Positions 12,481 through 40,047 of a DNA stretch of 64,000 nucleotides are shown one piece after another. The stretch is from Methanopyrus sp. SNP6 (GTDB taxonomy: Archaea; JAADCQ01; Methanopyri; Methanopyrales; Methanopyraceae). The notes under the pieces are model-generated. The model saw only the letters and a program-made list of their open reading frames with translations. It did no database searches and was not told the origin of the DNA. Location: NCBI RefSeq assembly GCF_002201895.1, contig NZ_CP019436.1:977619-1041618 (forward strand). Reading direction: 5' to 3'. Every line of letters starts with the position of its first letter. Position 1 is the first letter of the stretch. A program made the position numbers and the translations under genes.

Positions 12481-13596
12481 TCAAGCCCGCTCGACCTCCA
12501 GTCCCATCCCAAGTAGTTCCTGTAGAACCTCCTCGACGTACCGCGCGTACCTGCCCCGCTGTCCCATGAACGGTCCGAAGTCCTTCTGGTCGATCCACAC
12601 CTTCAGGTTCGGTCCTGCTATGTCCACGTCTACGATACGCTCTCCTATCCACGGTACCGGGTGGATATCCGCTATGAAGTCGACGAAGTCTAGGGTAAGG
12701 TGCGTCACGACGATCCTCATGTTCGTCTCCGCCTCTATCCTATCGATACGCTCACCTCCCGTCCCTACGACGCGACCTACGTGGCCTTCCTTGGTGACGA
12801 TCACCGCCTGCGGAACGTTCTCGGTCTTGATCTCGAGGTCCTCCGCGATCGGTTCCACGTAGAGTACAGTCAGCACGTCGGCGTCCGGTGCCTCGACTTG
12901 GACCACGTCCATGATCTCCCGTTCCACGTCGTTCATCTCCCTGTTACGGACTCTGATCTCCAGCTGTAGGTGCACACCCCGCTCAGCACCGGGACGCACG
13001 ATATCCCTCGTCCCCAGGTCCACGACTTCAGCCTTGGGTTCCTCGGCCAAGACCTCACGCATCACGGTGGCTCCGCACCGGTCGATGTCGATGTCCTTCT
13101 GGAGCACCGGATCACCTGTAATCAGGAGCCGTGAGTTGTGACCCATTCTCGCCAACACCTCACCCGCGTTCTCTGGCATCATGTTCTGGACTTCATCCAG
13201 TAGTATCACGGCGTCGTCGAACGTGCGTCCACGGACGAAGTGCGTATCCACAATCATGATCTTGCCCTCGTCCACTAACTGCTGGAGCTCGTCCCGCCCG
13301 GTGAACCGCGAAAGCACGTCCATGACCGGGGTAACTACCATCTCTTCGAACTTCTCGGGCAAGTCCGCGGAGCTCATCTCTTGCTTGGTGGCCACGTCGA
13401 CGAGCGGACGAGTCACTATGAACCGGTCGTATTCACCCTCCATCACGGCCTGCACGCCATACGCCGCACAGAACAGGGTCTTACCGGTGCCCGTGGGGCC
13501 GAACACGGCCACTATCTCATTCTCCTCGTTTAGCAGCGCTTCGACTAGTCGCTCCTGTCCTTCGGTCTGCGGCTCTACACTCATCAATTCCTCCAT
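12481..13596 (-). CDS. PhoH-like ATPase with C-terminal KH-type RNA-binding region
   Basis: 371 aa. The Walker A GPTGTGKT lies at about residues 34-41 and the Walker B ILLDEVQNM near 134-142, with sensor LLITGDPVLQKDIDI, as in PhoH. After the ATPase core, VVGTGGERIDRIEAETNMRI fits a KH GxxG loop, and a later FGPFMGQRGRYARYVEEV looks like a second KH-type GxxG. This suggests an RNA-handling ATPase, probably in RNA decay or ribosome biology. It sits immediately after uppS on the minus strand, with an 11-nt gap. Confidence 0.85.
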   Translation of the reverse strand: MEELMSVEPQTEGQERLVEALLNEENEIVAVFGPTGTGKTLFCAAYGVQAVMEGEYDRFIVTRPLVDVATKQEMSSADLPEKFEEMVVTPVMDVLSRFTGRDELQQLVDEGKIMIVDTHFVRGRTFDDAVILLDEVQNMMPENAGEVLARMGHNSRLLITGDPVLQKDIDIDRCGATVMREVLAEEPKAEVVDLGTRDIVRPGAERGVHLQLEIRVRNREMNDVEREIMDVVQVEAPDADVLTVLYVEPIAEDLEIKTENVPQAVIVTKEGHVGRVVGTGGERIDRIEAETNMRIVVTHLTLDFVDFIADIHPVPWIGERIVDVDIAGPNLKVWIDQKDFGPFMGQRGRYARYVEEVLQELLGMGLEVERA

Positions 13597-17206: not shown

Positions 17207-17215
17207 GGAGGTGTG

Positions 17216-17578
17216 ATGTCCTTGCCATACGAGCTCGGAAAAGTCGAGACAATTATAAAGCCGGACGACGGCGGAGTGATCTCAGCAGATATAAAAGTGT
17301 TGGCCACAGTAAGCTTGCATCGTGGTCCTACGATCATCGCGGAAGTCGATCCCAGGATAGCTGGAGAGATAGAGGAAGACGACCATGTCATCGTCGACTT
17401 ACCCTTGATACCTTCTCCGAATGAGTCCAGACCACAACCCAAAATAGTGAAGATTATTAAGGATGAGAAGCTCGTGAACCGCGTGAAGGCGGAAATCGAG
17501 AAGGAACCCGAGACTATGGTTCCACCCGTAATTCCCGGGCAGCCGACAACACCTCCACCCGAGGATATGTTCGGCTGA
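17216..17578 (+). CDS. unrecognised 120-aa protein upstream of the coiled-coil gene
   Basis: Start ATG 17216 (or GTG 17213), immediately behind AAGGAGGTG. A predicted beta-rich N-terminal domain (SADIKVLATVSLHRGPTIIAEV) is followed by a flexible Pro-rich tail (VPPVIPGQPTTPPPEDMF). I recognise no family. Codon use is more A/T-rich than in flanking genes, as in the next gene 23 nt downstream, so the two probably entered or evolved as a unit and may work together. Confidence 0.65.
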   Translation: MSLPYELGKVETIIKPDDGGVISADIKVLATVSLHRGPTIIAEVDPRIAGEIEEDDHVIVDLPLIPSPNESRPQPKIVKIIKDEKLVNRVKAEIEKEPETMVPPVIPGQPTTPPPEDMFG

Positions 17579-17601: not shown

Positions 17602-19416
17602 TTGATTTTTAAAAAGAGAAAAGGTGGCAAGCGTGAACCGTCCGAGATAGACCTTAAGCTTAAACCCCCGGAGGAAGGTGAGGGAGCTCCGAAGCTCAAG
17701 CTCCCCAAGCCGGAGGGGAAGCCCGTCGAGTCGAAAGGTGCTGAGACTGCCCCCAAATTAAAGCTTAAACCCCCGAAACCTAGTGAAGAAGAGGAGGAAA
17801 AGGAGAAAGAAGAGAGCTCACCGGCTGAAGTTAAACCACCTAAGCCACCGGAAGAGCGTGCTGCTCCCTCGAATTTGGAAGCTGAATTAGAGCGGCTGAA
17901 AGCCGAGAATGAAAAGCTTAGAGAGGAATTAGATGAATGGCGTAACAAAGCCAAGAGTGCGATGGGAGAAAGGGACAGATTAAGGTCTGAAATTAAAAGA
18001 CTTAAGGAGGAACTTGAGAAGCAAGAGAAGGAACTTGATAAGTACATCAAAATTTCGAAGCAACTGAAAGAAAAGTTAGAAAAAGCCAAAAGAGAATCGG
18101 AAGAACTCAAAGAAAAAACGGAAGAGTATCGTGAACGGTACGAGAAGATTGCTAGGAAATACAAGGAGCTTAAGTCGAAGCTAGAGGATCTCTCGGACCA
18201 AAATCGTCGTCTCGCAGAGAATCTAAAGAAACTTAAAGAGAAGTACAATGAAGTTAAGGAGGAGAGAGATAGGTTAAAGGAAGAAACGAAAGAAGTGGAG
18301 AAGTTCCGGGACCAACTAACTAAACTCCAGAGTAAACTTGAGGAGGTTAAAAGCGAGAGAGACGACTTCGCCAATGAAATTGAAGCCCTAAGGAGTGAGA
18401 ACGAGAAACTTAAGAAGAAAATAGATGAACTGAAGTCCAATTTGAGCAATCTCCAGAAAAAGCTCAAAGATAGGGAGAAGAAGTTGGAAAAGGCTCGCCA
18501 GCATATTGGAAAGCTCAGGGAGGAAATTAAGAGAAGAGACGAGGAGATAAGGAAGCTTAGGAAGGTACAAAATAAGTTGAAAGATGAAATTAAGAGGTAC
18601 GAGGAAGGGAAGCGACTTCTCGTTCCATCCGAGACCGAAATGGCAATAGCAAAGGTGAAGGGTAGTATTGTAATAGGAAAGAATTCAATGGTTAAGGCAC
18701 TTCAAGAGGATGAGCCTATAGTAGTTAAGGAAGAAATTAGTGTCAAAGATGACTCGCGAATTTATGGGACGGTTGTGGCTAAAAACATTTCAATCGGGAA
18801 TAATGTGAAGATTTATGGGAATGTAATTTGTGAAAACAAGTTGGAAATCGGAGAAGGCTCTACTGTGAAAGGTAATGTAATTTCTATTAATTCACTGAAG
18901 ACGGGTGCGGACGTGATAATAGAAGGGAGTATGATCAGTGGAGACGATATCTCGCTCGCTAACAACGTTGAGGTCAAGGAGGTTCTGATCACGCCGAGGT
19001 CGGTCAAGGCCAGTCAAGGCCTCAGCGTTGCGGCGGTGCTGTGTAACGATTTCGAATCGACCGGTTCCATAGAGGCGGATTACGTTCTAGCGGATGAGAG
19101 GGTCAAGCTGGGTGACGACAGCTTCGTCAAGACAGTAGTCGTCCGAGAGGGGCCAGTGGAGCAAGGGGTGAACTCATGCGTCTACTACGGCTCGTTGTCC
19201 ATCAAGAGTCGGAGTCCGAAGCTCTACATAAACACCGAACCGTTCGACGATCCAGTCGCTAACAGGGTGTTCCGCAAGACGATTTCCAACGTGGAGCGCC
19301 TCGGACCGTTTCATCTATCGAAGTCAGAGAAAGACGCTAAGTTCGTGTTGAACAGGGTCACAAAGATGGACATCGCGGAGATCGTGAAGGAACTACGAGA
19401 ATCTCTGAAGGTCTAG
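17602..19416 (+). CDS. coiled-coil protein with C-terminal bactofilin-like beta-helix
   Basis: 604 aa, TTG start behind GGGGAG. Three parts: residues 1-95, low-complexity Lys/Glu/Pro linker with repeats of KLKLKPP type; about 95-345, one long heptad-rich coiled coil; about 350-525, repeated short strands such as SRIYGTVVAKNISIGNNVKI separated by Gly/Asn turns, the pattern of a bactofilin (polymer-forming) or hexapeptide beta-helix. No signal peptide or membrane segment. Likely a filament-forming cytoplasmic scaffold; inference only. Base composition is A/T-rich to about 18950, then switches to the G+C-rich norm within the helix domain. Confidence 0.75.
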   Translation: MIFKKRKGGKREPSEIDLKLKPPEEGEGAPKLKLPKPEGKPVESKGAETAPKLKLKPPKPSEEEEEKEKEESSPAEVKPPKPPEERAAPSNLEAELERLKAENEKLREELDEWRNKAKSAMGERDRLRSEIKRLKEELEKQEKELDKYIKISKQLKEKLEKAKRESEELKEKTEEYRERYEKIARKYKELKSKLEDLSDQNRRLAENLKKLKEKYNEVKEERDRLKEETKEVEKFRDQLTKLQSKLEEVKSERDDFANEIEALRSENEKLKKKIDELKSNLSNLQKKLKDREKKLEKARQHIGKLREEIKRRDEEIRKLRKVQNKLKDEIKRYEEGKRLLVPSETEMAIAKVKGSIVIGKNSMVKALQEDEPIVVKEEISVKDDSRIYGTVVAKNISIGNNVKIYGNVICENKLEIGEGSTVKGNVISINSLKTGADVIIEGSMISGDDISLANNVEVKEVLITPRSVKASQGLSVAAVLCNDFESTGSIEADYVLADERVKLGDDSFVKTVVVREGPVEQGVNSCVYYGSLSIKSRSPKLYINTEPFDDPVANRVFRKTISNVERLGPFHLSKSEKDAKFVLNRVTKMDIAEIVKELRESLKV

Positions 19417-19418
19417 GT

Positions 19419-20495
19419 CTAACCTAGTAGTCCCATCTCATGTCCCACGTACCAGTGTAGCGACGACCCTCGGACCGTACGGACAAACCCTTTTCCTCTC
19501 ACTTCCCATCTGTCGTTGGTTTTCCGAACTTCGCACAGGACCCTCCCAGTAGGTATAGGACGGACTGTGATTCTATTGTCTTCATGTAGGTAACAAACGT
19601 AGTACGTCTCACCTTGTCCTGACCATATTTCGCTACCGTTCAGTTCCAGTTTGAGTCGCTTGCCAACCACCAGAGTGTAAACGTCGAGACGGTCTACGAT
19701 ACCGTCGTCGATAACCAGACTACGCTCGGGAACGCGCAGGTCGCTGATGTGAGCTCCCGCACCTATTACGGACCATCTCCCTATTTCACAACGCGAGAGG
19801 TATGCGTTCATTCCTACGAAACACCGTTCCTCGATTTTGCACCCGTGAATCTCTGCTCCATCTCCGACGAAAGTCACTGGGCCGAGTTCCGAGCGTTCGA
19901 TTTCACAGTGTGAAGACACGGAAACCCGTTTGTGTAACACTGAGCGACGGGCCGAAGAGAAGTTCGAGATCATGACTCCTCCGTGGACGGTGACATGCTC
20001 CAGCTCTACGAACGCTGCCACTCGAGCGTTGCCGCGTATTCTGGATTCCCTCACGGACACGAGGTGTGGGTGTTTGAAGGCAGGGCACAACCAGGCTTCC
20101 GAAGGGTCTCGTACCTTGAACCACCTGTTGGTGGGCGACTTCTTCGGATCGACTACGACGGCTAGATCTAGGTAGAAAGGCTTTCCGACTCGGTTTTCTA
20201 GGAGTTCACGGGCCCGCTTGCCGATCTCTCGGATGGTGCCGCCCTCACGACCGATGATGATAGCTTTCAGCGATTCCTTATGGACTACGAGTTCTGCTCG
20301 GGCGTAGACGAGTTCAGGACGTCCGCGGCCGGGCCGGATCTCCTTCACCTTGATTCCTACTTCACGTGGGAGTGACCCGTGGAGTACTTCGCGTAAGGCC
20401 GAGCGTAGGGCTCTCTCGACGGCGCGTTCATTCGGTAGGTGCGATGTAGTACTCGTAGTTCGGTCGTCTTTGGGTTCGGATTGCGGGCTGCTCAC
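19419..20495 (-). CDS. fusion of an Era-type KH domain to a left-handed beta-helix-like domain
   Basis: 358 aa from GTG 20495 (GGTGGTG 7 nt upstream), overlapping the DUF2118-like gene by 68 nt. Residues 25-117 closely resemble the C-terminal KH domain of the bacterial GTPase Era: SLPREVGIKVKEI, then ELVYARAELVV, then AIIIGREGGTIREIG and FYLDLAVVV. No GTPase domain exists. Residues about 145-270 show repeated hexapeptide-like strands (AEIHGCKIEERCFVGMNAYL), then a C-terminal beta domain. It could be an RNA-binding scaffold. It ends 2 nt from the convergent coiled-coil/beta-helix gene and closes the isoprenoid operon. Confidence 0.75.
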   Translation of the reverse strand: MSSPQSEPKDDRTTSTTSHLPNERAVERALRSALREVLHGSLPREVGIKVKEIRPGRGRPELVYARAELVVHKESLKAIIIGREGGTIREIGKRARELLENRVGKPFYLDLAVVVDPKKSPTNRWFKVRDPSEAWLCPAFKHPHLVSVRESRIRGNARVAAFVELEHVTVHGGVMISNFSSARRSVLHKRVSVSSHCEIERSELGPVTFVGDGAEIHGCKIEERCFVGMNAYLSRCEIGRWSVIGAGAHISDLRVPERSLVIDDGIVDRLDVYTLVVGKRLKLELNGSEIWSGQGETYYVCYLHEDNRITVRPIPTGRVLCEVRKTNDRWEVRGKGFVRTVRGSSLHWYVGHEMGLLG

Positions 20496-20919
20496 AGACG
20501 TACACCACCAGACAGTCCTGAGGTGCCTCGACGTACCGGACGTTTCCACTGCGAGTCGTCACGGCGGCCAGTGGATCACCTTTCCTGAGCCGGTCTCCTA
20601 CGTCGGCTATCGGTGTAACTACGTAACCTTCAACCGGTATCTGGTACACCCGGTCCCCGGGCTTCAAGAAGACTAGTGATCGACGATCTACTGGTTCTAC
20701 GACGACGTGTCGGGTGACCTCGGCTTCCGGTACGTTGAAGACGGACCTGGCCTCCTCATACACCACCCGCTCGTAGAATATCGGCTCGTCTAACTCTTTG
20801 GCGACCTTCTCCGCTAGCTCACGCGAGCGTATGATCACCTCGAATTCTGGGTCCGTGAGCAAGATCTTGCTACTCTCCGGAACTTCGTCGGTCTCCACGT
20901 ATATCCTAGGAAGTGCCAA
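20428..20919 (-). CDS. DUF2118-like protein with biotinyl/lipoyl-like fold
   Basis: 163 aa, TTG start behind GGGAG. The C-terminal half (GDRVYQIPVEGYVVTPIADV, GDRLRKGDPLAAVTT, YVEAPQDCLVVYV) has the beta-hairpin spacing of a lipoyl/biotinyl carrier domain but lacks the modifiable MKM lysine, having APQD at the turn. The N-terminal half is mixed alpha/beta. The family is archaeal and of unknown function; the DUF number is from memory. It lies 2 nt after idsA in the isoprenoid operon. Confidence 0.65.
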   Translation of the reverse strand: MALPRIYVETDEVPESSKILLTDPEFEVIIRSRELAEKVAKELDEPIFYERVVYEEARSVFNVPEAEVTRHVVVEPVDRRSLVFLKPGDRVYQIPVEGYVVTPIADVGDRLRKGDPLAAVTTRSGNVRYVEAPQDCLVVYVCEQPAIRTQRRPNYEYYIAPTE

Positions 20920-20921
20920 CT

Positions 20922-21896
20922 TCAGAACTCCCTCTCTACAACGAAATCCGCCAACTTTTCTAGGAACTCTCGATGCTCATTCTCGGGGAGCTCGTGCAGC
21001 GCAGCTTTAGCGCGATCGGCATACTCTCTGGCCCGCTTTTTAGCGTAATCTATCGCGCCGATCTCTTCTAATATCTGAATAACTTCACGAACGTCCTCGC
21101 GTGAAGCATCCTCATTCCCGAGGACCGAAAGTATGCGTTCCCGCTGCTCCTCATCGGCGAGCTCCAGGCCCTTGATTACGATCAGCGTCTTCTTCCCCTC
21201 GACGATATCGCTACCCACTGGTTTACCGAGTTCGGACTCGTCTCCGATCAGGTCGAGGACGTCGTCCTGTATCTGGAACGCGATCCCTAAGTTCTCCCCG
21301 TACTCCCGAAGCGCTCCCAATTGCTCGAGGTTCGCCCCGGCTTTAATCCCGCCCACAACACACGATGTCCGGATGAGTGCTGCCGTCTTCTTCCGGATCA
21401 TTTCGAGGAACTCTTCCTCGGTGACTTCGGTCCTGTTCTCGAACCCGATGTCCATGGCTTGACCCTCGCAGATCTCAGTGCAAGCGCGGGCGAGTTCTTT
21501 AACTGCCTCTACATTTCCACCTTCCGCCGCTACTTCGAAGGCTTTGGAGAACAAGGTGTCTCCCGCCAGGATAGCTACCGGTACTCCCCACTTCACGTGT
21601 ACCGACGGGACTCCGCGTCGTTCCTTGTCTTCGTCCATGATATCGTCGTGAATTAGCGTGAACGTATGAATCAGCTCGACCGCGACTGCTTCAGGGAGTA
21701 CATCCTTTTCCGATCCACCTAACATGAGACACGATTTGATGGCGAGGAGGGGTCGAATTCGCTTACCTCCCGCTTCGATTAGATGCCAACACGCATCGTA
21801 GAGGTCCTCTGGTCCTCCTCTGGGCAGTACCTCCTCAATCTTGGCGTCGACGAGCTCGCGTGCGCGGTTTAACTCTTCCAGTATCTCACTCCGCAT
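20922..21896 (-). CDS. idsA: short-chain trans-prenyl diphosphate synthase (GGPP/FPP synthase)
   Basis: 324 aa, ATG behind GGGGAC plus 6 nt. The first Asp-rich motif is HDDIMDEDKERRG (about residues 84-96) and the second IQDDVLDLIGD (about 213-223); GGKRIRPLL near residue 43 binds the diphosphate. It condenses IPP with allylic diphosphates to make the C15/C20 chain for archaeal ether lipids. Linked to IPK and IDI2 in the same operon, consistent with this job. Confidence 0.95.
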   Translation of the reverse strand: MRSEILEELNRARELVDAKIEEVLPRGGPEDLYDACWHLIEAGGKRIRPLLAIKSCLMLGGSEKDVLPEAVAVELIHTFTLIHDDIMDEDKERRGVPSVHVKWGVPVAILAGDTLFSKAFEVAAEGGNVEAVKELARACTEICEGQAMDIGFENRTEVTEEEFLEMIRKKTAALIRTSCVVGGIKAGANLEQLGALREYGENLGIAFQIQDDVLDLIGDESELGKPVGSDIVEGKKTLIVIKGLELADEEQRERILSVLGNEDASREDVREVIQILEEIGAIDYAKKRAREYADRAKAALHELPENEHREFLEKLADFVVEREF

Positions 21897-21908: not shown

Positions 21909-23261
21909 TTATAACGGCAGACTTAATTTCGTGCCGTCGAACATTATGAATACATCTCGGTTCACCTCATAGCCCTCTTGAGTGGCCAGTTCGGCGTACG
22001 CGGCCAGCATATCCGGGTCACCGTGTGCCGGGACGATGAACTCCGGATGGAGCATCCTGAGCATTAGGCGGTGATCTTCACGACCCGCGTGCCCCGACAC
22101 GTGCACATCCTTGAACATTTTCACGCCCTTCAGTCTGAGCTTGGTATCTAACACGTAGCGGTTAGCTCGATTTATAGGGGACGGAATCGTTGATGACGAA
22201 AACACAACGCTATCTTCTTCGGTCAGTCGGTACGGAAGCTCGCCGTCAACGATCCGCGGTAGCACGGCGCCCGGCTCTCCTTGATGTCCCGTGACGATCA
22301 GTAGGTAGTCCTCCTTCTCCTTGTTCGCCCGTTCGAGTCCCCGTCGAATAGTCTCGGGGCGATCGTAAATCCTGGCACCCGCGGGGAGGTTCAAAAGGCC
22401 GAGCTCCTCGGCGATCCTTCCGTATTTACCCATGGATCTTCCGGCGAGGATCACCTTTCTGCCTAACCTATCCGCAGTGTCTGCGATCGCCTGTATCCGT
22501 TCTATGTGTGACGAGAATGTTGTGACGATAATACCCTCACTCTCCTCGTCGGCAAATCTGAGCACGTCGTTCACCATTTCCCTAGCCACAGATTCGGAAG
22601 GTGTCTTAATTTCTTCAGCGACTCTCAAACTCTCAGTAATGAGTAGTAACACACCTTCTTTGCCCAATTGTTTGAGCCTTTTATAATCCGGTTTGTACCC
22701 TATTATTTGATTATCGTCGAACTTAAAATCACACGCGTATACTATTGTTCCGTAAGGTGTATGTAGCACTGGTAGAACACAGCACGGTATACTATGGCTT
22801 ATTGGGATAAATTCAAGTCGGAGTTTCGAGGTAATCTGCACTTCATCTCCCGGCTCGACTGTGTACAAGTTAATCATAATGTCTTCGGATTCATCAGCGT
22901 ACCTTATCTCATTCCTGAGGTCGGCTTTCACGAGTTCTATTGTGAACTCGGTCCCGAATACCGGACACTTGTACTTAAAGAGAAGTTTGGGTACCGCCCC
23001 AATGTGATCTAGGTGAGCGTGGGACAGGACCGCGGCAACCGTTTTGGAACGGTGTGGACGTAAGATCGAGTCATTCGGTATCGCTTTCACTTTGCGGAGT
23101 TCCCTAGTTGAGGCTTTCTGGAAATCTTTTTCGAAAACTAGCGACTTGTCCAGGGACATACCGCAGTCGAAGATCACTATCTCCTCGTCCACGCGGACCG
23201 CGGTCATGTTTCGTCCACCGGCCTCGCCGTATCCCCCTACTGCGAACACCTCGACGGTCAA
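21909..23261 (-). CDS. archaeal RNase J (metallo-beta-lactamase/beta-CASP ribonuclease)
   Basis: 450 aa. TTG 23261 follows GGGGTG plus 6 nt and overlaps the stop of the IDI2 gene (TTGA). The zinc-binding motif SHAHLDHIGA lies near residue 81; other conserved points are PISHSIPC, ACDFKFD, TTFSSHIERI, TGHQGEPGAVLPRI and a C-terminal HVSGHAGREDH. Such enzymes are 5'-to-3' exonucleases or endonucleases in RNA turnover. The placement between isoprenoid genes recalls the order known in Methanocaldococcus. A short internal patch (about 22680-22960) is A/T-rich. Confidence 0.92.
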   Translation of the reverse strand: MTVEVFAVGGYGEAGGRNMTAVRVDEEIVIFDCGMSLDKSLVFEKDFQKASTRELRKVKAIPNDSILRPHRSKTVAAVLSHAHLDHIGAVPKLLFKYKCPVFGTEFTIELVKADLRNEIRYADESEDIMINLYTVEPGDEVQITSKLRLEFIPISHSIPCCVLPVLHTPYGTIVYACDFKFDDNQIIGYKPDYKRLKQLGKEGVLLLITESLRVAEEIKTPSESVAREMVNDVLRFADEESEGIIVTTFSSHIERIQAIADTADRLGRKVILAGRSMGKYGRIAEELGLLNLPAGARIYDRPETIRRGLERANKEKEDYLLIVTGHQGEPGAVLPRIVDGELPYRLTEEDSVVFSSSTIPSPINRANRYVLDTKLRLKGVKMFKDVHVSGHAGREDHRLMLRMLHPEFIVPAHGDPDMLAAYAELATQEGYEVNRDVFIMFDGTKLSLPL

Positions 23262-24382
23262 CGGTTCCACCCCGTTCGGCGATCACCGGTGCAGACGAGA
23301 TCGAGTGGGACTCCCCGGCACTCCAACCATTCACGTAGCTTCCCGTACACTACTATGGGGACACTGCTCATTTCCTCCACGGATGAACACCCCGTCATCA
23401 ACATCGCAATCTTGACCTCGCGAGCGATCGACTTTAGGAAGCGGACGCAGCCTCTGACGCCCTCAGCCAGCACTTTACGGAGCACTGGTAAGGCCATTCC
23501 AGCGCAGTCCGCACCTAGAGCCAAAACCTTCGCGACATCCATCCCCGTGCGCACGCCTCCGGTTCCAATTACCACGAGATCGTTACCGACGACGCTCCTG
23601 ACCTCGAGTACTGAAGCTGCAGTGGGGACTCCCCAATCGGAAAACGCGTATCCTAGTGGTGTCTCACCGTGAGCTTTCGACCGGACGGCTTCGACCATTG
23701 CCCAGTTAGTTCCACCAGCTCCACCGACGTCGATACCCTCCACGATATTTCGAACCAACTTGGCGTCTTCGGCTGACACGCCGGCTCCGGTCTCCTTCAA
23801 GATCACCGGCACATCCACCGTTTCGCAGACTTCGGCGAGTACGTCCACGAATCCGGCAGCGTCCGCCTCACCTTCCAACTGAACCGCTTCCTGCAGCACG
23901 TTCACGTGAACGGCCAGCGCATCCGCGTCCACCATATCGACGACTTCGAGTGCAATGTCCGGACCGTTCTCGCGCAGCTGTGGGAGCCCGATATTGGCCA
24001 GTACCAGGCCGTCGGGATACTCCTCCCGTACCACTTCAAACGTCCACCGCACTTCTGGATCCTCTACGCCGGCTCGCTGGCTTCCAACTCCTATACCTAT
24101 CTCAAGCTCGCGGGCTACTCGGGCGAGTTTCCGGTTGATCTCGCCGGTTTTAGGATGTCCTCCCGTCATCCCGGCGATTATCATTGGAAAAGAGAGCCGC
24201 TTCCCGAAGAGTTTGATTTCCATGTCTACGTCGTCGAAATCTAGCTCCGGGAGTGCCCGATGTACTATCTTCACGCAGTCGAACAGCGGGCTTTCCTCCG
24301 ATTCGACGTCCTCCCAAACGCACGCCAGCACGTGTTCCCACTTCCGTTCTCTCGTTCCTTCAGCGCGTGATCCTCGTACCAA
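23258..24382 (-). CDS. fni: type 2 isopentenyl-diphosphate isomerase (FMN-dependent)
   Basis: 374 aa. TTG 24382 is chosen because GGGGTG lies 6 nt upstream; it overlaps the kinase gene end by 23 nt. Motifs: FPMIIAGMTGGHPKTGEIN, IGVGSQRAGVEDPE, LANIGLPQL, a VILKETGAGVS strand and GTGGVRTGMDVAKVLALGA for the FMN phosphate. It converts IPP to DMAPP in archaea lacking the type 1 enzyme. It follows isopentenyl phosphate kinase, the enzyme that makes its substrate. Confidence 0.94.
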   Translation of the reverse strand: MVRGSRAEGTRERKWEHVLACVWEDVESEESPLFDCVKIVHRALPELDFDDVDMEIKLFGKRLSFPMIIAGMTGGHPKTGEINRKLARVARELEIGIGVGSQRAGVEDPEVRWTFEVVREEYPDGLVLANIGLPQLRENGPDIALEVVDMVDADALAVHVNVLQEAVQLEGEADAAGFVDVLAEVCETVDVPVILKETGAGVSAEDAKLVRNIVEGIDVGGAGGTNWAMVEAVRSKAHGETPLGYAFSDWGVPTAASVLEVRSVVGNDLVVIGTGGVRTGMDVAKVLALGADCAGMALPVLRKVLAEGVRGCVRFLKSIAREVKIAMLMTGCSSVEEMSSVPIVVYGKLREWLECRGVPLDLVCTGDRRTGWNR

Positions 24383-25079
24383 CGTGTCCACCCCTAAGGA
24401 ATCTGTCGACGTTTTCCGGGTCTCGAGCATCGAACAGGTACACTTCCACGCCGCGCTCCGCTATGCGTGCGGCCCTTCGCAGTTTCTCCGCGATGCCCCC
24501 CGTCACATCCACGCCGGCAGAACCTTCCAGCTGCCGTGCCAAATCTCGCGCTTCATCCGGGGAGAGCTCCCTTAAGGGCTCCCCCTCCTCCGGTGTTCTC
24601 GGGTAAACCCCGTCGACGCTCATTCCGAAACCGACCCGATCCGGACCCAGCCGAGACACTAGCTCGGCGATTTCGTCGCCCGACATGATCCTGAACCCGT
24701 CCCCGCCGTGGTCTGGGACGACGTCACCGTAGAGTAGGGGAACACAACCACGCTCCAGCAGGTCCACTAACACGTTGAGCGAGTACAGCACCGTTGCGGG
24801 GGTCACCGGGTACACGCGCACCCCCGAGTCCACCGCCGCCTTCTCAACGATGGAGAGTAGCTCGTGCATCGCCCGTCGAACTTCCGAAACACCCTTTTGT
24901 AGGTCGGTTACCCTCGACGCCGCGTAGTGCCCGAACGACCCTCCACCGTGAATGAGTACTAGGTCTCCCTTCCAGTCGGAGATGACTTTCATGAGCCTCC
25001 GAATACGGTCTTCCCTGGCCGTTTTCGGTTTCGATTTGTCGGTGATCACACTTCCTCCGAGCTTCAGAACCGTGAGCAC
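24360..25079 (-). CDS. isopentenyl phosphate kinase
   Basis: 239 aa amino-acid-kinase fold enzyme that phosphorylates isopentenyl phosphate to IPP in the archaeal (modified) mevalonate pathway. Motifs: LKLGGSVITDKSKP (N-terminus), IHGGGSFGHYAA with the catalytic His used by this family, GDVVPD, and SVDGVYPRTPE. The GTG start is behind GGGGGC. First gene of the operon IPK-IDI2-RNase J-IdsA-DUF2118-KH/beta-helix. Confidence 0.93.
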   Translation of the reverse strand: MLTVLKLGGSVITDKSKPKTAREDRIRRLMKVISDWKGDLVLIHGGGSFGHYAASRVTDLQKGVSEVRRAMHELLSIVEKAAVDSGVRVYPVTPATVLYSLNVLVDLLERGCVPLLYGDVVPDHGGDGFRIMSGDEIAELVSRLGPDRVGFGMSVDGVYPRTPEEGEPLRELSPDEARDLARQLEGSAGVDVTGGIAEKLRRAARIAERGVEVYLFDARDPENVDRFLRGGHVGTRITR

Positions 25080-38860: not shown

Positions 38861-39991
38861 ATCCGAGTAGGGCTCGTGATCCACGGTCCCACGGTTATCG
38901 ACACGGGATGGACAGAGCGTATCCTTCACTCCCTGGAAAGGCTAGGTGAGGTCCGTGCTAAGCTCGGAGGTACCACCGGTTACGTGGCGCTCTTAGATGC
39001 GAGGCTAGACTCCGTAGTGGAGTTCGATCGGAAGCTACCGAGCGAGTGCTTGTCCGATCTGAACGAGTGGGCCGACGTTCTAGTCCTCACGAACCACGGC
39101 AAAAGTCGGGAAAGCGGTCTCGCTTTCGCGGAACAGGTACTCTCCAGGGCCGAAGGCGTCGACTCGCTAGTACAGGTAGAGCGCCCGGGCGAGCCCGACG
39201 GTGGTATTGTCCTATGGAACCCTGACGACGTGGAGCGGAAGGTGGCTGAGCACCTCCAGAAGGATTTGGGGCTGGAGATCACCGAGGTTAGGACGGTTCG
39301 GACCGATAAAGGTGGCGAGACTGGAAGATCCCGTAGGATCGCCTGTGTCGAGCCAGGTGATCTCATTCTAGTGAACGGAATCACCGTAGGCGTCGCCGAG
39401 TCTCGGAACGTGGAGCTGGTGTTCGATGATAGTGGGTACTTGGTGGAGATCCGTGGCGGTAGGATCAAGCCGGAAGGCGTAGAGCGCCTCGGCCAGGTGG
39501 ATCCCGAGCGCGTGGTAGTGAAAACGGACCGCAGACTTAGGAGGACTGAGCCGAAGCGTAGGAGGGTGAAGAATGGACCCGCAAGGATCCGCCGGATTCT
39601 ACTCATCGACCACGACGCGGAGCGTAAGGTCGAGGATATGCGTCGATCGGATGCTGTCGTCTCCGTCGGTGACGATACGACTTGCGTGTGTGCGGAGCTA
39701 GGTGATCGGCTGGGAGTCTGGGTGATAGGGATCGTCGATCTCGACCCGGACGGGTGGGTTCGTGACGATACGCGCGAATCCCTGCGCGGCTCCGAGAACC
39801 TAATGGCTCTACTTGTGTGTGAGCGGGACGACGATGCCGGGGAATTGGTTCGAGAACGATTCTTTCGCGGCCGAGAGGTGAAGGTGCTCGATCCCCCCGT
39901 GACAGCTGGGGATCTCGTCGAAGAGGTGAAAGAGTGCGTAAAAGAGGTTCTCAAGTGCGTGTACCACAAGGCGAAAGAGACCTCAGCGTGA
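38861..39991 (+). CDS. DUF2117-like methanogen protein; probable ATC start
   Basis: 376 aa from ATC 38861, which lies exactly 6 nt after GGGGTC; this restores a complete first strand (RVGLVIHGP). The first NTG codon (GTG 38876) would cut it and has no Shine-Dalgarno at the right distance. N-terminal GPTVIDTGWTERIL, then a region rich in Val/Asp; the C-terminal half has VSVGDDTTCVCAELGDRLG and GIVDLDPDGW. The family is found in methanogens and has no assigned function (DUF number from memory). First gene upstream of mmp2-mmp3. Confidence 0.75.
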   Translation: MRVGLVIHGPTVIDTGWTERILHSLERLGEVRAKLGGTTGYVALLDARLDSVVEFDRKLPSECLSDLNEWADVLVLTNHGKSRESGLAFAEQVLSRAEGVDSLVQVERPGEPDGGIVLWNPDDVERKVAEHLQKDLGLEITEVRTVRTDKGGETGRSRRIACVEPGDLILVNGITVGVAESRNVELVFDDSGYLVEIRGGRIKPEGVERLGQVDPERVVVKTDRRLRRTEPKRRRVKNGPARIRRILLIDHDAERKVEDMRRSDAVVSVGDDTTCVCAELGDRLGVWVIGIVDLDPDGWVRDDTRESLRGSENLMALLVCERDDDAGELVRERFFRGREVKVLDPPVTAGDLVEEVKECVKEVLKCVYHKAKETSA

Positions 39992-40047
39992 GCTGGGTTC
40001 CTCACCACTCGGACCCGCGACTTCTCGTCATCGGTGGGGGTTCGGCC

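Follow-up and report, generated by a model that had tools for sequence, protein, structure and literature searches.

A GTPase-less protein joining an Era-type KH domain to a hexapeptide beta-helix is conserved in Methanopyri

One gene of the window (the whole 64,000-nucleotide stretch of Methanopyrus DNA that was analyzed) encodes a protein in which a KH domain of the type found in the bacterial GTPase Era is followed by a hexapeptide-repeat beta-helix and a C-terminal beta domain (Table 1). This combination is a real and conserved new architecture of known domains. The presence of an Era-type KH domain across a whole archaeal lineage, free of the GTPase and carried on a beta-helix, crosses the supposed line between bacterial and archaeal ribosome assembly, and it raises the question of whether such a domain functions at the 3' end of 16S rRNA without GTP. 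The explanation that we favor, tentatively and at somewhat less than even probability, is that this is an RNA-binding protein, probably with a trimeric beta-helix core, that grips the 16S rRNA 3' end on 30S subunits.

The phylum of the window is represented in the genome set by five Methanopyri genomes of a single genus, and the whole protein was found in all five, at 53-92% identity. The host is archaeal, as the original prediction held; its 16S rRNA gene matches the archaeal model over the full length. Whole-gene dN/dS was 0.15-0.28 in four pairs, a sign of purifying selection; the closest pair, which is the only one far from saturation, gave 0.18. Constraint is weakest in the C-terminal domain, with a dN/dS of 0.47 in one pair. 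A chance match or a pseudogene is ruled out by the conservation together with dN/dS values well below 1.

The reading frame on the minus strand is open to 20549, and canonical in-frame starts occur only within the upstream DUF2118 gene, in the stretch 20428-20549, a feature that the original prediction did not mention. Usable starts inside DUF2118 are present in four of the five genomes (GTG, or TTG in one), and no start codon is common to all five. The fifth genome (L005:2118-2140) has an in-frame stop, and its sole GTG falls at the first KH helix, with a Shine-Dalgarno-like site, GGAGGTGA, 18 nt before it. The true start is uncertain; the KH domain lies downstream of, or begins at, every candidate start.

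Table 1. Features of the KH/beta-helix protein and its gene neighborhood (positions in the window)
Feature	Coordinates	Strand	Evidence or remark
KH / beta-helix / C-terminal beta-domain protein, whole CDS	19419..20495	-	Likely GTG start at 20495; TAG stop 19419-19421; in all five Methanopyri
Era-type type-II KH domain (alphaA, SLPREVG, betaA, betaB, GxxG, alphaC, betaC)	20142..20426	-	PDB Era, NCBIfam Era, PF07650, fold comparison Z 11.8-15.6
GxxG loop, G-R-E-G	20241..20252	-	Sequence; GRGG in three relatives
Linker with invariant NRWF and CPAxKHP motifs	20061..20141	-	pLDDT 26-48 over most of its length; conservation
Hexapeptide-repeat domain (left-handed beta-helix by sequence)	19698..20060	-	PF00132 E 4.2e-11; GlmU profile 2.9e-12; beta-solenoid in model
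C-terminal ten-strand beta domain	19422..19697	-	AF2 pLDDT 91.8 when folded alone; sequence relatives in Methanopyri only, among 121 genomes
DUF2118 gene, overlapping the KH gene start	20428..20919	-	PF09891 E 5.7e-55; upstream in all five genomes
Prenyl (geranylgeranyl-type) diphosphate synthase (presumed), same gene run	20922..21896	-	Gene order
RNase J, same gene run	21909..23270	-	PF22505 E 3.8e-25; RMMBL E 1.4e-11
Type 2 isopentenyl-diphosphate isomerase, idi (presumed), same gene run	23258..24430	-	Gene order
Convergent coiled-coil protein with C-terminal beta-helix-like region (bactofilin/hexapeptide-like, below cut-offs)	17602..19416	+	Neighbor in all five genomes

The original prediction placed an Era-type KH domain, with an SLPREVG segment and a GREG loop, at the N-terminus of a protein from which the GTPase is missing, and both statements agree with the database searches. 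When the KH part was used as a single-sequence query against solved structures (PDB), Era was the sole family hit: Aquifex Era matched at E 1.4e-16 (query 44-135), Thermus Era at 2.6e-9, Staphylococcus Era at 3.3e-7 and E. coli Era at 0.018. A profile built from the KH domains of the five Methanopyri genomes and run against 177,635 sequences likewise gave Era, and not an ordinary archaeal KH protein, as its best match. Bacterial Era proteins were found at E 3e-17 to 1.7e-7, the latter value being that of E. coli Era, the most distant one tested; non-Era KH domains began at 0.02 (FUBP/IGF2BP, eukaryotic KH), and uS3 and human ERAL1 appeared at 0.1. Judged by sequence, the resemblance is specific to Era rather than to KH_2 at large, the weakest bacterial Era lying five orders away from the best-ranked non-Era KH. 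The NCBIfam "GTPase Era" model was matched (E 2.8e-14) only over positions 180-278 of 291, which correspond to the KH half and the preceding helix, with 53 bits against a cut-off of 237, and a Pfam scan gave no match to a GTPase family. The KH_2 family PF07650 was matched above its curated cut-off (30.7 bits against 22). Ordinary archaeal KH proteins (Dim2, uS3 and PhoH-KH) are ruled out as the source of the match; the Era-KH profile has a single match in each Methanopyri genome. The window does contain a second KH protein, a PhoH-type ATPase with a C-terminal KH domain (12481-13596).

Fold comparison agrees with the profiles. The AlphaFold model of the KH domain was closest to ERAL1 in a mitochondrial small-subunit intermediate (Z 15.6, with 91 residues aligned at 1.2 A), followed by the Era structures of Aquifex with RNA (Z 14.8), Thermus (14.5), E. 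coli (13.4) and Staphylococcus (11.8); KhpB (Z 10.8) and uS3 rank below Era and ERAL1. The protein shares with Era and ERAL1, which occur in bacteria and organelles, an extended type-II KH domain with an identical order of elements and a GxxG loop, and its identity to the Era KH domain is 23% for E. coli, 31% for Staphylococcus, 38% for Aquifex and 40% for Thermus. It differs from them in having its KH domain at the N-terminus, before the beta-helix and the beta domain, and in the region after betaC, where the model has no helix at the position of Era alphaD, in a stretch with pLDDT under 50. Across four bacterial Eras 20 positions are invariant, and at 10 of these all five Methanopyri have the same residue; the conserved set includes the glycines of GxxG, the proline ahead of betaA and the K that precedes IxIG. 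The other 10 differ in at least one orthologue, two of them as K/R exchanges, and the K of betaC is V in the window protein. SLPREVG is invariant in all five orthologues, and the GxxG loop is either GREG or GRGG. The domain is strongly basic throughout, with a pI of about 10.4 in the window protein and 10.2-11.7 across the five genomes.

Among 389 other archaeal genomes, the five-genome KH profile found no credible Era-type KH domain; the lone other hit (E 5e-4) has two internal stops. Since E. coli Era was detected at 1.7e-7, an ordinary bacterial-type Era KH would have shown up in this search. Full-length Era was also sought, and none of 297 archaeal genomes exceeds the Era cut-off, the hits listed being nearly all lone GTPase domains. 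A lone small Era/Der-like GTPase of 196 aa, of a kind common to other archaea, is encoded elsewhere in the Methanopyrus genome (L076:1400-1990, minus strand). A contig scan with an alignment of the beta-helix and C-terminal domains retrieved only three Methanopyri MAGs, with patterns narrow enough that they could miss distant bacterial versions. Viral contigs gave no match for the protein, and neither did plasmids, where the single-sequence query is too weak to detect a distant Era. The KH domain was probably acquired by transfer from bacteria. A 2023 review that contrasts "bacterial" with "archaeal" ribosome assembly states that era was apparently never present in archaea (PMC10582724). Era domains have been found combined with further domains, in fusions to YbeY, CS, SGS, DUF916 and RNase III (PMC10582724), but these extend the canonical GTPase-KH unit and none is listed with a hexapeptide domain, in agreement with the earlier statement that no protein joining an Era-type KH domain to a beta-helix was known. 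Text searches of the open-licence literature found no paper on the Methanopyrus Era-KH protein.

The hexapeptide beta-helix that was predicted to follow the KH domain is upheld by the sequence and, as a beta-solenoid, by the predicted structure. PF00132 is matched with 42.5 bits against a cut-off of 27, and in all five orthologues; Hexapep_GlmU also lies above its cut-off. By profile, the closest solved relatives are the GlmU C-terminus (2.9e-12) and gamma-carbonic anhydrases (4.9e-10). The predicted model has a beta-solenoid after the KH domain, with pLDDT mostly 56-86 and structural matches that include right-handed and pentapeptide solenoids. The sequence families would make the solenoid left-handed, a handedness that the model leaves unsettled. 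Although it shares hexapeptide repeats with GlmU and the gamma-carbonic anhydrases, the protein has neither their catalytic residues or metal ligands nor a nucleotidyltransferase domain. A GlmU-type acetyltransferase is ruled out: the catalytic set, which we take to be R332, K350, H362, Y365 and N376 in S. pneumoniae GlmU, aligns with E, E, M, S and V in the profile. A gamma-carbonic anhydrase is ruled out as well, since GDGA or GDGT stands in place of the GHNC ligand motif and all but the two closest genomes lack IHGC; this check of the three His ligands covers the two in the aligned stretch, the third being unaligned.

The beta-helix does have invariant polar residues of its own, beyond what the fold demands: H148, H165, K166, R167, H173, C174, E200 and C202 (A1 numbering of the orthologue alignment). 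Residues of this set make a ligand site or a catalytic site of another kind possible. It could be supposed, from these invariant residues and from the kinship to GlmU-type acetyltransferases, that the KH domain delivers RNA to the beta-helix, which would then transfer an acyl or similar group by means of these residues. We consider such an RNA-directed enzyme unlikely; the acetyltransferase residues of GlmU are replaced, and to our knowledge no hexapeptide enzyme acts on RNA.

The C-terminal beta domain, which did not figure in the original prediction, had no convincing match in the PDB (best Foldseek E 0.3; best Z with a second aligner 4.4). Several FHA chains align at Z of about 4, which may merely reflect a common arrangement of strands. 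Sequence relatives were sought in 121 archaeal genomes and no credible one was found beyond Methanopyri, the lone hit (0.004) containing a stop codon.

The KH/beta-helix gene is the last of a run, idi - RNase J - prenyl synthase - DUF2118 - KH/beta-helix, whose order is kept in all five genomes and whose members are separated in the window by gaps of at most 12 nt or overlap. The prenyl synthase and idi products were recognized from sequence and their names are presumptive. The DUF2118 loci of a Thermococcus-like archaeon and of one other archaeon have no KH neighbor. A DUF2118-like gene lies directly beside idi in a distant archaeon (L074), and that gene pair is thus not restricted to Methanopyri.

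The ligand of the Era KH domain is helix 45 and the GAUCACCUCC tail of 16S rRNA, with the GxxG loop contacting GAUCA, and alphaC, betaC and a loop contacting CCUCC (PMC10582724). Methanopyri keep this h45/GAUCACCUCC RNA unchanged. All five genomes have the exact 16S 3' end, TGCGGCTGGATCACCTCC, and helix 45 plus the tail is GTAGGGGAACCTGCGGCTGGATCACCTCC, at the terminus of the full-length archaeal 16S gene. Since the ligand of Era KH is known, the RNA is unchanged and the KH domain is basic, the simplest reading is that the protein still grips the 16S 3' end. Most hexapeptide proteins are trimeric, so that the beta-helix would probably form a stable trimeric core. This core would bear the Era-type KH domains on flexible linkers, and the KH domains would hold the rRNA at the base of helix 45 and along the single-stranded 3' tail. 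The protein would act on 30S subunits in assembly, quality control or storage, alongside the ordinary archaeal Dim2 pathway. We infer the trimerization, the 16S rRNA ligand and the step of action alike.

Dim2/Pno1 is itself a KH protein acting at the 16S 3' end; its archaeal form (arCOG04150) is encoded by a separate gene in all five Methanopyri (225-231 bits) and is not matched by the Era-KH profile at E 0.01. That a KH factor already serves this RNA end counts against the 16S reading, as do the 10 changed positions of the 20 invariant in Era and the role in isoprenoid synthesis of most other genes in the run, while the tight linkage to RNase J is supporting context. The same altered positions, the presence of Dim2 and the place of the gene at the end of a run containing RNase J would also suit a KH domain re-aimed at another nucleic acid (mRNA, tRNA or DNA), for example in the service of RNase J, and unrelated to the 16S 3' end. 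Against this, few parts are better conserved than the GxxG core and the Era-specific SLP segment, and the 16S target is unchanged; a change of target seems unlikely to us.

Gripping the 16S 3' end without a GTPase may be harmful, since the bacterial Era KH minus its GTPase is toxic on overproduction (PMC10582724). The Methanopyri protein would thus need some other means of release, weaker binding or a different target. It might be a captured bacterial Era KH domain carried by a trimeric beta-helix, with a ligand site or a partner of the beta-helix taking over from GTP hydrolysis as the release switch. We rate this proposal as quite improbable; if true, it would mean a second, archaeal-made control of the 16S rRNA 3' end.

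A convergent beta-helix gene 2 nt away had also been predicted. The spacing is correct for the window (stops at 19414-19416 and 19419-19421), and in each of the four relatives the genes share 4-9 nt of coding sequence, but the beta-helix of the partner is less secure: bactofilin PF04519 scores 22.7 bits against a cut-off of 27.9, and the hexapeptide match is also below the Pfam cut-off. The partner, possibly a cytoskeletal polymer in Methanopyri, contains a long coiled coil. The KH/beta-helix protein could then be a tether, anchoring ribosomes or RNA to a filament of the partner, beta-helix against beta-helix. The long coiled coil, the bactofilin-like region and the adjoining of the two genes in all five genomes fit this idea, but convergent genes are not co-transcribed, the partner's matches are those just described, and adjacency across five related genomes may be mere inheritance, so that a tether is in our view rather improbable. 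Finally, a split Era, with the separate 196-aa GTPase providing the switch in trans, is very improbable, for although this GTPase matches Era positions 4-170 (E 8.7e-22) and ends before the KH domain, similar lone GTPases, often better-scoring, occur in many archaea without an Era KH, and its gene is far from the KH gene.

Two further features of the window may be recorded. A 121-aa protein (17213-17578) without a credible Pfam or NCBIfam match is 82-98% identical in three other Methanopyri, above the values for its flanking genes. The C/D box RNA sR28 was detected at 39981-40035, with a score of 40.5 bits, just above the gathering score of 39.
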